Source of the DNA: Bdellovibrio bacteriovorus
GTDB lineage: Bacteria > Bdellovibrionota > Bdellovibrionia > Bdellovibrionales > Bdellovibrionaceae
DNA length: 64,000 bases
Direction of reading: 5' to 3'
NCBI RefSeq assembly: GCF_002208115.1
Contig: NZ_CP020946.1
Coordinates: forward strand, 2,790,001 to 2,854,000
Shown: piece by piece, positions 32,377-56,336 of the stretch
How the letters are laid out: each line of letters begins with the position of its first letter
Position numbering within the stretch: position 1 is the stretch's first letter
The notes under the pieces: model-generated
Databases searched by the model: none
Told to the model about the DNA's origin: nothing
The model's input: the letters and a program-made list of their open reading frames with translations, nothing else
Made by a program: the position numbers and the translations under genes

Positions 32377-33826
32377 TTACTTTCGGATCGGGAAAGAGCA
32401 AATAAATTCAGATCCCTGGTCGACAATACTTTTCACCGCAACCGTACCACCGTGACTTTGCATAATATGCTTCACAATGGCCAGCCCCAGCCCCGTGCCC
32501 CCGGCATCGCGGGTGCGCCCCTTGTCGATGCGATAAAAGCGCTCAAACAGGCGATCCAAGTGTTGCTCAGGAATCCCCTGCCCGTCATCGATCACACGCA
32601 GGATGATGTATTCTTTGATATCGCGTTCCCAGCGGATCTGGATGGTCTTGCCAGAGGGAATGTATTTCACGGCATTGGACACCAGATTGCGCAGGACTTG
32701 TTCCACTTTGCGGGCATCGGCCAAAAACGGGGGAACATCGCCGTTCACACGGATGGTGATGTTTTTTTCCGCCGCCATCACGGCCAGCTCTGAAACCACG
32801 TGCTCAGAAATCGCCAGCGGATGAATCATTTCAAGCTTCAGCTCAGAATTTGAGGCTTCCAGCGTGTTGATGCTAAGCATGTCATTCACTAGATCCATCA
32901 GGCGGTCAATATTTCGAGACACGATATCCAGGAACTTTCCGGCCTGCTGAATCTGGCCAGTTTTTACGTCCTCTTTCAGTGTGTCCACATAGCCCTTGAT
33001 GGACGTAAGCGGCGTTCGCAGTTCATGAGACGCGTTTCCAACAAAATCCATGCGGATCTGTTCAGCCCGTTTCATCTCGGTGATGTCGTGGAAGATCCCC
33101 ACGACGCCGTAGATTTCCTGGGTCTTTTCATTGCGGATCGGATTCACTGACACCGCAAAGAAACGCGGTTGATTGTCGATCAAGGTCGGAAGCTTCACCG
33201 TAAAGCGCTGAACTTTGCCGATCTTGATGGTTTTGCCAAAGCCTTCCAACACGTCGGAAGAGCGAATAGCATCCTTCAATCGCAGAATCTGACCGTTCAG
33301 AAGGTCGGACGACAGGAATTGCGGACGACAGGAATTGCGCGGCAAATTGAGAATTAAAATAAAGAATCTTTTCATCAAGGCTGACAGACACCAGCCCCTC
33401 GGCCACGGCGCTCATGAAGGCCTGGGATTCTTCCTGAGACTGCAGATAACGGGCTTTGCGGTTTTTCATCTTGCGATGAATGCGATCCAAAGCCAATTCC
33501 AGTTCAGAAATATCAGCGGTTTCGTCGTCCGCCAGATCGTCTTCTTGTTCTTTCACCAGACTGCCGAAGGTGCGTTTGCTGGAAATGCGCAATGCTTTCA
33601 GAATCACGCGATGAATGGGTTTTGCAAAACGATAAGACGTGATGGCCGAAACCAGAATGCTGAAAACCAAGAAATTCAACAGGGCTTCGTTATAGACAAA
33701 CGGACGAACCCCGTGACGAACATCGATAACAGAAATGACGGCCAGATACAGACCATTGAAGGCCACTACCTGCCAGGAGAAGTAGCGCCAATAAACTCGC
33801 CATGGAAATCGGATAAATCGCTTCAT
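32377..33826 (-). pseudogene. phoR: Phosphate sensor histidine kinase PhoR, frameshifted by a 16-bp tandem duplication
   Basis: The 5' frame (33826-33128) carries two transmembrane helices (~15-35, 50-70), a linker and the start of a PAS domain. The 3' frame (33378-32377) has the rest of the PAS domain, the H-box NASHELRTPLTSIKGY and the ATPase motifs DDGQGIP and GGTGLGLAIV. The break is a perfect tandem copy of GGACGACAGGAATTGC (33307-33322 and 33323-33338). Removing one copy restores ...NSQFAAQFLSSDLLNGQIL... in frame, giving 477 residues. PhoR activates PhoB at low phosphate. As read, the sensor is cut from the kinase. An internal ATG could still start the kinase piece. It overlaps phoB by four bases. 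Confidence 0.88.
33307..33338. repeat. Perfect 16-bp tandem duplication in phoR
   Basis: GGACGACAGGAATTGC occurs twice without a gap. Sixteen is not a multiple of three, so the reading frame shifts. Slippage could remove or restore it. Confidence 0.97.
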
Positions 33827-37321: not shown

Positions 37322-37379
37322 GACCCTCGCCCCATCCGTTCCGCCACCACCACCCTCATTGCTTTTGGGACCCTCGCCC
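37322..37379. repeat. Two REP-like cores upstream of the transposase
   Basis: GACCCTCGCCCC lies at 37322-37333 and GGGACCCTCGCCC at 37367-37379. The same core occurs inverted after the transposase gene. Confidence 0.6.
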
Positions 37380-37415
37380 GCTTTGCAGCTATGGCTCTTC
37401 ATCAAGGAGTTGCAC

Positions 37416-37958
37416 ATGGCAAAACACTTTTCTTTTGGCGGCGATCTTAAACATGACTTCAATGGAACCTCTTATGGAGGAGAACTTTCTAAAGGCAAAC
37501 GACGAAGCCAGCGACCACTTTCCAACTATGAACCGATTCACCTGGTACTTAAGAGCAACAAAGCCTTCGGGCGAAGGTCCCTTTTGCATCCGGCGAACAG
37601 GAAAATGCTTCTGAAATACACACGAAGATTTGTATTTCGTTTCAAGGTGAGACTTTACAGCTTTGCCAATGTCGGAAACCACATCCATATATTGATCCGC
37701 GTCCCTAATCGCAAAGCCTATGTCAGTTTTATCAGCGCACTGACAGGCACCATCTCTAAAATGATCTTCAAATCCGCCGGCATGTGGGACCTTCGCCCCT
37801 TCACTCGTGTCACCTCTATGGGGCGAGGGTTCGGAATTGTGCGGAAGTATATAGAAAGGAACGTCGAACAAGGCTTGATGGTGGTGGAATCCATTATGAA
37901 GAAAGATCCACTTTGGCGGCGGGCGGGATTTGACTCGGTGATTTGGTCCTGGGGATAG
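37416..37958 (+). mobile_element. REP-associated tyrosine transposase (RAYT, Y1 family)
   Basis: 180 residues from the ATG at 37416, with AAGGAG upstream. The Y1 transposase domain carries the HUH motif NHIHIL, with the conserved tyrosine in GIVRKYIERN. These single-stranded DNA enzymes move or maintain REP sequences. The flanks carry GGGACCCTCGCCC-type cores in opposite orientation (before at 37322 and 37367, after at 37962). Further core copies lie inside the gene itself at 37569, 37786 and 37820. It separates the ppx gene from the large hydrolase. It has no intact IS ends that I can see. RAYTs are usually single-copy and domesticated. Confidence 0.85.
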
Positions 37959-38155: not shown

Positions 38156-41100
38156 ATGAAGTCCGCAAAGTCTTATAAGAATGTTCTGGCAATGAGCTTT
38201 ATCTCCACGATCATTGCTTTTGGCTCCACCACAGCCCATGCCTTCGACATTCCATTAAAAGCCAGCGACATCAAGACCGTGGCCCGACCTGCTGCTCAGA
38301 AAAAATCCAAAACGATTTTCCTCGCAGTCGACGGTCTAAGCTACAACGCTTTTGCAACAGCCCAAAAGCAGGGACTCTTCAAAGAATTCTCAAGCTTCGG
38401 AGCACACGTCGCCCCTTTTCCATCTATGACTGACTTGTCCTGGGCCACCGTCACACACACCTCCGACATATTTGGAGCCGCCGGACGTATTAAATCTGTT
38501 GAAGCTACCTATTTCGATGAGTCCTCCCAGTCAATTCAGGGCGATCCCCGCGACTACTACCGTCGTTTGGCTTCCCCAAAGTACTATATGGGGGCCTTCG
38601 AATCCTTCTTTAATCCATATGTCGAAGCTCTTATGTACTTCCCCACAGAAGAGGTTCCAAAACTTGAAATCAAAACTGTTGTGGATGAGCTTTCCGCAGC
38701 GAAATCAAAGCCGGTCCTGACAGGATATATCGGCGCAATTGACTCTACCGCCCACACTCAAAAAGACCGCCTGTTCCCGGTCATGAAAATCCTGGATTCA
38801 GAAATCAAACGTCTGATCAAAAACTTCAAGGACAAAGGTGAAGACTTTGAAGTTGTTCTGGTGTCCGACCACGGCAACATCGGCCGTTTTCAGGAAGGCA
38901 CCGCTGAAATGGAACTCATGGGTGTGGATATCGGCGAAGTTATCTCCCGTGCCGGCCTCAACAACGTTCAACAATTAAAAGACCCCAAAGACGTGGCCGT
39001 GCCTTTGATGGCATTGGGCACCTGGGGTCCTGTCTACCTGAAAGACCGCAAACAAATGCCTCGCCTGATCGAAGAGTTTAAGAAAGCAAACTGGTTCGAC
39101 ATGGCGGTCTACATCAACCGCAACAACGCCTCGGACACTCTAATGACCGTAGAAACCTCCACAGGCGGGGCGAAGGTCCAATTTGATAAGAAGAATGGCT
39201 TGTATTACTACTATCCAGAGATGGGAAATCCGTTGGGCCTTCCCAAGGAGTATCACTCCACTAAGGCCGCTCCCAAAAGTATGAAAGCCGATCAGCTTTT
39301 AAAAATCACAGCCCTTACTAAATATCCTGACTCTATCTTCCGTCTGATTGAGTCGGCTTCTGAGCGCAATTTTGACTTCCCGGATTTCATCCTGACCCTG
39401 AAAGACGGTCACTACATCAAATCCGCTCTGGGTGGCTTCACTAAAATGTACCGCACTCACGGCTCTTTGACCGCAGCTTCCAGCTTCGGCCTGGTTGCTT
39501 CCACCAAACGCATCATCCCTGGCCAGATACGCTCCAAAGACATCCTTCCATTCTTCGGTATCGAAGCCAAAGAACTGTTCGGCAACACCGCTGCCCGCCA
39601 CGAAAAGTCCGGCCGCGAAGCCCTGCAAGAGGTCAACATCAACTCCCGCCGCGGTGTTGAGACTCAAGCCAAAGATCTTTCCCAAAAACGCATCTTCCAG
39701 CACCTGACAAGATTCGTGTCTGACACGCGTCCTTACTTCCTGGTGTCTGAAATCAAGAGCTTCATGGATGCCTTCAAGTTCGATCCGTTCCAAAAACCAG
39801 GCTCCAGCTCTATGAGCCCAATGAACTTTGATATCTCCAAGTTCGACGTCAACACCATGATCAGCCCAGAAGACATCGGTGCGGTGACGGATGCGGTTCT
39901 GACTGCAGGTTCAGTTGAAAACCTCATGAACGATCCACGCATTGAAAAGGTAAAAGCCAAAGTCGGCATCCTTCAGGATACCAAAACCGCAAACCTGGAT
40001 CTGAAAACCACCGACCTGACTTCCGGCGGTATCATGGGTGACATCGCGAAATTCGTGCTGCCAGCCAAACGCGCCGTCATGAAAATGTACCAGCTTCCAT
40101 ACCTGCTGGAAAAATCCATCGTGGTTCAGGAAAAACCATTCCTGCCAGAAACACGCGACATGGTCTTTGCGAAAAACTGGGTTTCCACCAAAGAATCCCT
40201 GGCAGCTTCTTTCGCGAAACTGACTGACGTGAAGCAAGCAACCAAAACGAGTGCGGCGGAACAACTGCTGAAAGAAACCATCAAGGAAGCAGACCTTGAA
40301 GACCGCATCTATCCAACACCACTGACGAAGATCTACAACTCCAAGCTGGAAGACGTGACCTTGGTGTACGTTCCAGGCATCTATAACAGCATCTTCGACA
40401 AAGAGATCTTCTCTTTGGGTCTGAATGCCCTGCAGGACGATCTGGGCCTGCGTGTGATCCAGCCGCCAGTGGAATCCACTTGCGCGAGCGACCTGAACGC
40501 CGACATCATCATGAACTACATCCGTGACGACTATAAAATGCGCTTGCAGCGTGGCCACAAGGCTCCTCGCTATGTGTTCCTGGGCTATTCTAAAGGTGCG
40601 GTGGATACACTTCATGCTTTTGTTAAAAATCCTAGCTTCGTGTCCACATACGTAAAAGGCTTTGTGTCTGTCGCGGCTCCATTGCATGGTTCCAGCATCC
40701 TGAACACGACCGACGTTCCGTTTGCCCTGGTTTCAGCCCTTTCTGAAAACCAAGGTCCGGAGATCTGCCAGACTGAAAAAACCGCGTCCAAGTCCATTTC
40801 CCCGACGGCGATGGATTCTTTCTGGAGAAAGAACGAAAGATCTTTGATCGGTCTGACTCGTTACTTCTCTGTGACCTTTGAAAGTGACCCTGAAGATTCT
40901 CACATCTTCATGAAAGCCACCAAAATCATCGGTCAATTCGAAGAAAACAACGACGGTGTCGTGACGGTGTCTTCTTCCAAGTTCCCGGCTCGTTTGAAGG
41001 CCGTGGACATGGGCACCATCAAAGCCGATCACCTGGCTGGTATCTTGTCTTCCCGCTTTAACCAGAAGGCCTTCATGAAAGGTCTGGTGACGGCGCTGGC

Positions 41101-42166
41101 GGAAGCCAACATCACCGATGACAACGCCAATTTGGAATGGAACTCCCGCGTGATCCTTTCTGCGGCGAATGCCTCCCCGATCAAGAACCGCGCTTACTAT
41201 TCTTTGGGTAAACCGGGCGTTGCCAAGGTTATGCACCTGGGCCACGAAAATCTGGTGGACTTCCTGCCATACGGAAACTCTTACGAGCTAAACCGTCAGG
41301 CATTGCCAGCAATCGTGGATCCGGCTGACAGCTATGAAGTGAAAACGAAACTGCCACAATCCCAGTTGCGTTACGATCCGTATGCGGTTCTGGACGTGGC
41401 AAAACTTCCGGATGTGATGGCTGGCGTGAAGGTGTCCCCTGCGACCAAGTCCAACATGCCTGAAGGTATCAACATCGAATACCACCACCAGAACATGGTT
41501 CACTTCCGCATGGATCACCAGTTCAACTATGAATCCCGCACTCCGGGTGGCATGGATGACAACAAGGATTCCGGTTACATCACTGCTGAATTCAACGGTG
41601 AAAAAGACTGGGCTGCGATGAGAAGTAAAAACAACTCCATCCGTCTGACGACGATGGCGTACAGATTCTCTCCGGCGGAATTCTCAACGATGGATCTGAA
41701 ACTGGCAGTTACCAAAGGTGTTAAAGGCGCTGACCCGGTAAAAGGCAAAACCGGCAAAGACGACTCTGCCTTCCAGGTTTGGTTCACCATCCGTGACGGC
41801 AAAGCCAACGGCGACCGCACTTTGGTTGACCCAAAGAACGACAAGGTGATCTTGTTCGGTTACTACTGGGGTGACGAAGTGAACGGTGAAGTTCGTCAGG
41901 CTGGTTCCATTTACGAAAACTGGTACTCGAACAAAAATATCGTGGTGGCAACACTGCCTGAGGCGAAACAGCTTCTGCTGAACAACCAGGACATGCTGGG
42001 TAAAGCCCAGAACTATAAGCGCAACCTGATGGAAGACCTGAAGAAAGCCTTCCCGGATAGAAATGTGAATGACTTTGAAATCGTGGCAATCACGATTCAG
42101 CACGACTCCAACGACGCGGAAGACTCTTCCGAGGCGTTCTTCAAGTCCCTGAAATTCACACCTTAA
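38156..42166 (+). CDS. Giant secreted hydrolase: alkaline-phosphatase fold, lipase fold and DUF3047-like domain
   Basis: 1336 residues from the ATG at 38156, with AAAGGGG upstream. A signal peptide (to ~Ala28) exports it. Domain one (~50-450) is an alkaline phosphatase-superfamily phosphodiesterase: FLAVDG (Asp59), the nucleophile region PSMTDLSWATVTH (Thr92), IDSTAH (Asp196, His200), VSDHGN (Asp238, His239) and a final THG (His435). A helical middle (~480-720) follows. Domain two (~730-985) is an alpha/beta hydrolase with LGYSKG (Ser812), NNDGVV (Asp933) and KADHLAG (His959), a full lipase-type triad. Domain three (~1095-1336) resembles DUF3047: FQVWF, FGYYWG, and the end IQHDSNDAEDSSEAFF. 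The fusion is unlike any enzyme I know. Both active sites look intact. A role in degrading prey phospholipid or nucleotide is inference. Confidence 0.82.
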   Translation: MKSAKSYKNVLAMSFISTIIAFGSTTAHAFDIPLKASDIKTVARPAAQKKSKTIFLAVDGLSYNAFATAQKQGLFKEFSSFGAHVAPFPSMTDLSWATVTHTSDIFGAAGRIKSVEATYFDESSQSIQGDPRDYYRRLASPKYYMGAFESFFNPYVEALMYFPTEEVPKLEIKTVVDELSAAKSKPVLTGYIGAIDSTAHTQKDRLFPVMKILDSEIKRLIKNFKDKGEDFEVVLVSDHGNIGRFQEGTAEMELMGVDIGEVISRAGLNNVQQLKDPKDVAVPLMALGTWGPVYLKDRKQMPRLIEEFKKANWFDMAVYINRNNASDTLMTVETSTGGAKVQFDKKNGLYYYYPEMGNPLGLPKEYHSTKAAPKSMKADQLLKITALTKYPDSIFRLIESASERNFDFPDFILTLKDGHYIKSALGGFTKMYRTHGSLTAASSFGLVASTKRIIPGQIRSKDILPFFGIEAKELFGNTAARHEKSGREALQEVNINSRRGVETQAKDLSQKRIFQHLTRFVSDTRPYFLVSEIKSFMDAFKFDPFQKPGSSSMSPMNFDISKFDVNTMISPEDIGAVTDAVLTAGSVENLMNDPRIEKVKAKVGILQDTKTANLDLKTTDLTSGGIMGDIAKFVLPAKRAVMKMYQLPYLLEKSIVVQEKPFLPETRDMVFAKNWVSTKESLAASFAKLTDVKQATKTSAAEQLLKETIKEADLEDRIYPTPLTKIYNSKLEDVTLVYVPGIYNSIFDKEIFSLGLNALQDDLGLRVIQPPVESTCASDLNADIIMNYIRDDYKMRLQRGHKAPRYVFLGYSKGAVDTLHAFVKNPSFVSTYVKGFVSVAAPLHGSSILNTTDVPFALVSALSENQGPEICQTEKTASKSISPTAMDSFWRKNERSLIGLTRYFSVTFESDPEDSHIFMKATKIIGQFEENNDGVVTVSSSKFPARLKAVDMGTIKADHLAGILSSRFNQKAFMKGLVTALAEANITDDNANLEWNSRVILSAANASPIKNRAYYSLGKPGVAKVMHLGHENLVDFLPYGNSYELNRQALPAIVDPADSYEVKTKLPQSQLRYDPYAVLDVAKLPDVMAGVKVSPATKSNMPEGINIEYHHQNMVHFRMDHQFNYESRTPGGMDDNKDSGYITAEFNGEKDWAAMRSKNNSIRLTTMAYRFSPAEFSTMDLKLAVTKGVKGADPVKGKTGKDDSAFQVWFTIRDGKANGDRTLVDPKNDKVILFGYYWGDEVNGEVRQAGSIYENWYSNKNIVVATLPEAKQLLLNNQDMLGKAQNYKRNLMEDLKKAFPDRNVNDFEIVAITIQHDSNDAEDSSEAFFKSLKFTP

Positions 42167-55409: not shown

Positions 55410-56336
55410 ATGTTGAAAAAACTAATTCTTGCAGCGACGGTTCTAAGCCTTGCCGCGTGCGCCTTTGATCAGGACAAAAACGCCGGCAAACAGCGCGAGA
55501 TCGAGCAAAACGGAAAGTTGCAACAGACTTACAAACCAGTGATCGGCACTTACGTGGGCCAAATCACGACCGCTGACGGCACTCAGGATCTGGAAGTGAA
55601 ATTCTTCGAACTGAAAGTCGATAACGGCGCGAAAAACTCTGACGGTTCCACCCGCTTGCACTCCACTCTTTATGCAACTTACAAGCGCATCAATCCGGCA
55701 GGCGAAAGTTACGATTTTGTTGTTGGTTTCGCTCCGGAAACCGGCGACCTGACTTTGGTGAACGTAAAAGACATCAAATCTTTGGGCCGTGACGAAATCC
55801 AGACTGTGGACGCTAAAATCAGCGGCAACAACATCCTGGGTGAAGCCAAGGCGATCTCGGGCCCGAAAGGTATCGTCAAACTTTCCTTGAAAGCGCGTGA
55901 AAATGAATCCACGGGTGGCGGCAAGGAAGAGTTTGCTTACTATGAAAGACTGCGCGCGCAACTGACCGCGATTTCCGGAACTTACGTGGGCCAGATGGAT
56001 CAGGGCAACTCCGGTCCGGTAAAGGGTGTTGTGGGCATCACATTGCGCCTTTACGTTCAGGAAACTGTGAAGGAAGGATCTACCGTGACCATTCCTCGTC
56101 TGATGGGTGAATTGAACCGCGCGGACGATCCAGGCCACACGGCGGACCTGACCTTGACGGGTGTTTACGAAGCGGACCTGGCTGAGCCACGCCTGACTTT
56201 GACCGGCAAACCGGCTCGCGATCTGAATTCAAAATTTGAAGCGGCTATTTATGGCAAACTTGTAAATGGTGTTTTGGAAGGCGCTCTGACATCTAATTAC
56301 TCCATGTCAGGCAAGCTGATCCTGAAAAAACAATAA
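55410..56336 (+). CDS. Lipoprotein with two GTYVGQ modules, function unknown
   Basis: 308 residues. The lipobox SLAAC (Cys17) marks it as a lipoprotein. Two modules each begin with GTYVGQ (residues ~47 and ~190), which suggests an internal duplication of a beta-barrel or lipocalin-like domain of ~140 residues. No catalytic motif is visible. It lies 14 bases after the TolC-like gene and before a small exported protein, so it may assist the outer-membrane complex. Function is unknown. Confidence 0.78.
   Translation: MLKKLILAATVLSLAACAFDQDKNAGKQREIEQNGKLQQTYKPVIGTYVGQITTADGTQDLEVKFFELKVDNGAKNSDGSTRLHSTLYATYKRINPAGESYDFVVGFAPETGDLTLVNVKDIKSLGRDEIQTVDAKISGNNILGEAKAISGPKGIVKLSLKARENESTGGGKEEFAYYERLRAQLTAISGTYVGQMDQGNSGPVKGVVGITLRLYVQETVKEGSTVTIPRLMGELNRADDPGHTADLTLTGVYEADLAEPRLTLTGKPARDLNSKFEAAIYGKLVNGVLEGALTSNYSMSGKLILKKQ

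Follow-up and report, generated by a model that had tools for sequence, protein, structure and literature searches.

A putatively exported phosphodiesterase-lipase fusion of Bdellovibrio bacteriovorus as a candidate enzyme of prey-lipid breakdown

Bdellovibrio bacteriovorus encodes a 1336-residue protein, predicted to be exported, in which an alkaline phosphatase-superfamily phosphodiesterase, a lipase-type alpha/beta hydrolase and a DUF3047-like C-terminal domain are joined in one chain. The fusion is a new architecture made from known enzyme kinds. On balance we favour, with reserve, a role as a bifunctional hydrolase that would be delivered to the prey and would degrade lipid-type substrates in its envelope. 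To our knowledge, far less has been explained of how Bdellovibrio breaks down prey membrane lipids than of its cell-wall attack; a two-site hydrolase that is predicted to be exported, and has probably already been seen in prey ghosts, is a concrete candidate for this breakdown, and a linked headgroup-transferase-like gene hints at its likely substrates.

Domain architecture and active sites

The features of the gene are given below in coordinates of the window, that is, the whole stretch of 64,000 nucleotides that was analysed.

38156..42166, + strand: fusion gene, 1336 aa plus stop codon; open frame from the ATG at 38156 to the stop ending at 42166
38156..38242, + strand: predicted Sec signal peptide, residues 1-29, with AHA before the predicted cut; from sequence features and orthologue N-termini
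38303..39580, + strand: alkaline phosphatase-superfamily phosphodiesterase domain, residues 50-475; from PF01663, ENPP6 as the top but weak PDB sequence match, and NPP structural matches
38330..38332, + strand: Asp59, predicted metal ligand; invariant in all aligned phosphodiesterase-bearing sequences
38429..38431, + strand: Thr92, predicted nucleophile, Ser in some relatives; from alignments
38741..38743, + strand: Asp196, predicted metal ligand; from alignments
38753..38755, + strand: His200, predicted metal ligand; from alignments
38867..38872, + strand: Asp238-His239, predicted metal ligands; from alignments
39458..39460, + strand: His435, predicted metal ligand; from alignments
39581..40318, + strand: linker, residues 476-721, which a low-confidence model shows as mainly helical; protein identity below that of the lipase and C-terminal domains
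40319..41125, + strand: lipase-type alpha/beta hydrolase domain, residues 722-990; from MGS0156 and BlEst2 profile matches and a structural match
40481..40483, + strand: Cys776, predicted disulfide partner, one of only two cysteines; invariant in 23 sequences
40589..40591, + strand: Ser812, predicted lipase nucleophile; matches the triad Ser of MGS0156 in the alignment, invariant
40766..40768, + strand: Cys871, predicted disulfide partner of Cys776; invariant in 23 sequences
40952..40954, + strand: Asp933, lipase triad; aligned with the MGS0156 triad, invariant
41030..41032, + strand: His959, lipase triad; aligned with the MGS0156 triad, invariant
41126..41431, + strand: variable connector, residues 991-1092; least conserved stretch
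41432..42163, + strand: DUF3047-like C-terminal beta-sandwich, residues 1093-1336; from PF11249, below its cut-off in the query, and structural matches

A Shine-Dalgarno-like stretch, AAAGGGG, lies directly 5' of the ATG. Compared with the genomes taken as HD100 and Tiberius, the gene has a dN/dS of 0.04-0.07; it is therefore a real, constrained gene, under strong purifying selection. Against the same two genomes, dS reaches 1.0-1.2 in the phosphodiesterase-coding 5' part (window 38156-39580) versus 0.15-0.32 in the lipase part, and the raised value suggests that the 5' part may have undergone allelic recombination. Read for sequence features, residues 1-29 combine a positive n-region, a hydrophobic core and AHA; most orthologues begin alike, and the sequence features give no evident transmembrane segment after this stretch. 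Residues 1-29 thus look like a Sec signal, and we infer that the protein is exported by Sec, in agreement with the export predicted by the initial annotation. That annotation had also named ten catalytic residues (Asp59, Thr92, Asp196, His200, Asp238, His239 and His435 in the phosphodiesterase, Ser812, Asp933 and His959 in the lipase), and in the translated 1336-aa frame all ten sit at the positions it gave. In 23 orthologues, full-length or nearly so and down to ~35% identity, they are invariant apart from a Ser that sometimes replaces Thr92; the claim of that annotation that both active sites are complete is supported. Pfam and profile matches together with the orthologue alignments bear out the three-part architecture as well.

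Residues 50-475 are an NPP/type I phosphodiesterase-like domain of the alkaline phosphatase superfamily. The match of the isolated domain to PF01663 (Phosphodiest) is marginal by 0.9 bits (23.9 bits against a cut-off of 23) and, with the whole fusion protein, falls below the cut-off at 19.9 bits; PF01663 matches 13 of 15 relatives of the domain. Invariant positions are few among these 15, some at ~20% identity, and are mainly predicted metal-site residues; the two-metal ligand set (three Asp, three His) and Thr/Ser92 are kept in all phosphodiesterase members aligned. AlphaFold models were built on two halves of the protein with 7-8 sequences each and have mean pLDDT values of 47 and 58, so that the folds are leads and the fold evidence is supportive only. 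Structure prediction, which the initial annotation had proposed as a check, did return NPP enzymes as best matches of the phosphodiesterase half and a match of the lipase to MGS0156, but from models of low confidence. The VIA list for the phosphodiesterase model (pLDDT 47) is filled by NPP and superfamily members with Z scores of 7-8.4, and a structural second look at this low-confidence half gave snake venom PDE (Z 8.4), ENPP6 (8.1), and ENPP3 and autotaxin (8.0); Foldseek, run on the same model, gave no match below E 0.04. The NPP enzymes (Xac NPP, ENPP6, autotaxin; PF01663) resemble the fusion in the two-metal constellation and the Thr/Ser nucleophile and are its best structural matches, but share very little sequence with it (about 10-17% identity in structural alignments). 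We know of no NPP joined to a lipase.

The lipase domain has no Pfam match in the query protein. Its profile matches MGS0156 (PDB 5d8m) with E=4.6e-10 and BlEst2 with E=3.7e-5, and its low-confidence model matches MGS0156 with Z 9.6 over 150 residues (rmsd 2.6). The Ser812-Asp933-His959 spacing was scored as identical, in register and with intervals of 118 and 23 residues, to that of the MGS0156 triad Ser232-Asp350-His373 (PMC11236915). The only two cysteines of the whole protein, both invariant, lie in this domain, and one of them aligns near a cysteine of MGS0156; this pattern would fit extracytoplasmic folding, and a Cys776-Cys871 disulfide probably holds the lid region. MGS0156 and BlEst2 are like the fusion lipase in the SKGxxD motif and the lid-region cysteine, and MGS0156 in triad order and spacing too, but both are separate enzymes lacking a phosphodiesterase, whereas the fusion lipase is an internal domain.

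For the C-terminal domain, the assignment of the initial annotation stands in the family rather than in the query itself: PF11249 (DUF3047) matches 6 of 8 family members at E<=0.1 (best 1.8e-6) but scores 18.1-19.9 bits in the query, where the cut-off of 27 is not reached. We therefore call the domain DUF3047-like only. Its model is a beta-sandwich that resembles carbohydrate-binding modules, MAM domains and GH12/GH16 folds, a likeness of shape and not of function. An NCBIfam scan of the fusion protein gave noise only.

Orthologues and origin of the fusion

The full fusion or large pieces of it were found in 19 Bdellovibrionaceae genomes when 60 relatives were searched. Short peptide patterns, which find close relatives only, gave 7 loci in 84,980 species genomes, all in Bdellovibrionaceae or a deltaproteobacterial MAG. 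Profile searching across 241 genomes of the phylum added one further member of the Bdellovibrionaceae (G180) and revealed full-length fusions in two distant families, of 1465 aa (G167) and 1355 aa (G170), each ~35% identical; no relatives of the fusion were found in the plasmids or phages searched. The view that no homologue with such an architecture had been described holds in that the orthologues are uncharacterised, but about 20 of them exist in Bdellovibrionaceae and two in distant families. We also considered an assembly artefact or a chance fusion; because the architecture recurs in about 20 genomes and reaches distant families, we rejected both.

Elsewhere in the phylum, each catalytic domain also occurs by itself, the phosphodiesterase in several families of the order and the lipase in many sampled genomes of family f17, which makes the protein a real fusion, joined at least once. 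These standalone relatives (phosphodiesterases of 434-506 aa, lipases of ~405 aa) have the same catalytic residues as the fusion; they differ in being single-domain, and the two lipases examined have no obvious signal peptide. One f17 genome retains only a degraded, stop-containing copy of the fusion whose N- and C-terminal pieces adjoin (L115, G087:C14:80455-81211).

The HD100 orthologue and prey ghosts

By gene order, Bd1012 is very probably the HD100 orthologue of the fusion. In the genome taken as HD100, the cell-wall hydrolase Bd0992 (PMC2797640) fits a Hydrolase_2 gene at 936.6 kb, and deacetylase-like, protease-like, ABC-ATPase and lipoprotein ORFs, assigned by reading the sequences, follow in the order Bd0993, Bd0994, Bd0995, Bd0998. 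A PilZ gene (PF07238) falls at Bd1007, a YcgR homologue (PMC11323537). Counting on from Bd1007 puts the orthologue, which is 97% identical and lies at about 957.6-961.6 kb, at Bd1011 or Bd1012, and the fusion is the only alpha/beta-hydrolase gene recognised at this position. In a secretome study of empty bdelloplasts (uninvaded, killed prey left by a non-invading mutant, with proteins identified by mass spectrometry), Bd1012 has a secretion signal and is listed among the wider AB-hydrolases detected; the study had low peptide numbers, and some of its proteins came from lysed predators (PMC11003981). In the main text of that study, Bd1012 is named only as an AB-hydrolase and the phosphodiesterase half goes unmentioned.

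The suggestion that the protein may be a predation enzyme is thus indirectly supported by the reported detection in prey ghosts of Bd1012, its orthologue by gene order, but qualified by the finding that 7 of 23 sampled same-genus genomes gave no fusion. The fusion is therefore not needed for predation as such, which suggests that its role is accessory rather than core. Its predatory use, as judged through the locus-tag assignment, is likely.

Proposed function, linked genes and alternatives

After export by Sec, the N-terminal domain, with its two-metal site and Thr92 nucleophile, would cleave a phosphodiester, most likely that of a headgroup in a phospholipid or in LPS. Acyl chains would be removed by the lipase domain, and attachment to the target surface is probably the task of the C-terminal beta-sandwich. 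In this scheme we infer the substrates, the order of action, the function of the C-terminal domain and the passage of the protein across the outer membrane. A lipid as common substrate of both sites is plausible. We are more doubtful, while regarding it as possible, that one secreted protein fully dismantles a prey lipid, with one site releasing the phospho-headgroup and the other the acyl chains, and that in some species a linked membrane headgroup transferase puts the freed headgroup back to use or shields the predator's own lipids.

The strongest hint at an involvement of lipid headgroups is a sphingomyelin-synthase/PDCT-like gene linked to the fusion. It encodes a membrane protein that scores over the cut-offs for AtPDCT1_2 and PAP2_C and has conserved SGHT and AHWTMD motifs. 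The gene is present in 11 of the 60 relatives, each time at a distance of 158-1138 bases from the fusion, and in no genome that lacks the fusion; it takes three arrangements (upstream on the same strand, upstream divergent, downstream convergent); Fisher tests of this co-occurrence, in which kinship is ignored, give p values of 2e-7 over the 60 genomes and 0.007 within the genus. In five loci an alpha/beta hydrolase gene adjoins it. The PDCT-like gene is absent from the source genome of the window, which we count against an attack on lipids, as we do the place of the fusion among phosphate genes, which fits phosphorus scavenging too.

The two activities may instead be separate, the phosphodiesterase acting on soluble phosphodiesters such as nucleotides or nucleic-acid fragments and the lipase on lipids, with the fusion ensuring their joint delivery. 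Such a division of labour is compatible with the structural matches, among which the nucleotide enzymes snake venom PDE and ENPP1/3 score no lower than the lipid enzymes ENPP6 and autotaxin, with the long helical linker that separates the domains in the low-confidence model, and with the existence of each catalytic domain on its own in other families. We nevertheless hold it to be the less probable explanation: the headgroup-transferase-like gene points to lipid headgroups, and the fusion has stayed intact in distant families. The tight linkage, in a subset of relatives, to a membrane enzyme of the lipid-remodelling type could also mean that the fusion protein, together with the headgroup-transferase-like and alpha/beta hydrolase proteins, remodels the predator's own envelope lipids instead of acting on prey. 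Against this stand the report, in PMC11003981, of the likely HD100 orthologue in prey ghosts and the lack of the membrane-enzyme partner in this strain, and we give this explanation the least credence.

Hardly more credible is a Pho-response scavenging of phosphorus, in which esters outside the cell, phospholipids among them, would yield phosphate or glycerol. It would account for the position of the gene, in this genome and in the genome taken as HD100, between ppx and sixA-ppk and near phoU/phoB/phoR-like genes. However, the fusion is distant from ppk or on another contig in four same-genus genomes (G005, G007, G016, G020), and its linkage to the PAP2_C/AtPDCT-type gene is stronger than that to ppk. 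Moreover, sixA-ppk is on the strand opposite to the fusion, a search for an E. coli-type Pho box, whose consensus may not be that of this phylum, found none, and the fusion is still conserved in this strain while the PhoR-like kinase is frameshifted.

The PhoR-like histidine kinase gene (window 32377-33826, - strand) is split into two overlapping ORFs; the frameshift corresponds to a 16-base tandem duplication relative to an intact 477-aa copy in the genome taken as HD100 (L123:15965). Directly upstream of the fusion, between ppx and the fusion, lies a Y1_Tnp (IS200-like/REP-type) transposase gene (window 37359-37958, + strand); some orthologues have related ORFs nearby. At a fusion locus of family f17 (L111:472-6163), genes for an S8-type protease and GY-repeat lipoproteins come before the fusion, and in f16 a related protease/lipoprotein pair precedes a lone 610-aa phosphodiesterase (L126:3406-7702); the pattern is known from these two loci only and was given no weight in our reading. 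Similar-looking lipoproteins are encoded in the window at 55410-56333, in a TolC/RND-like gene row, and at L120:5755-6642, where the gene adjoins the fusion in G035.
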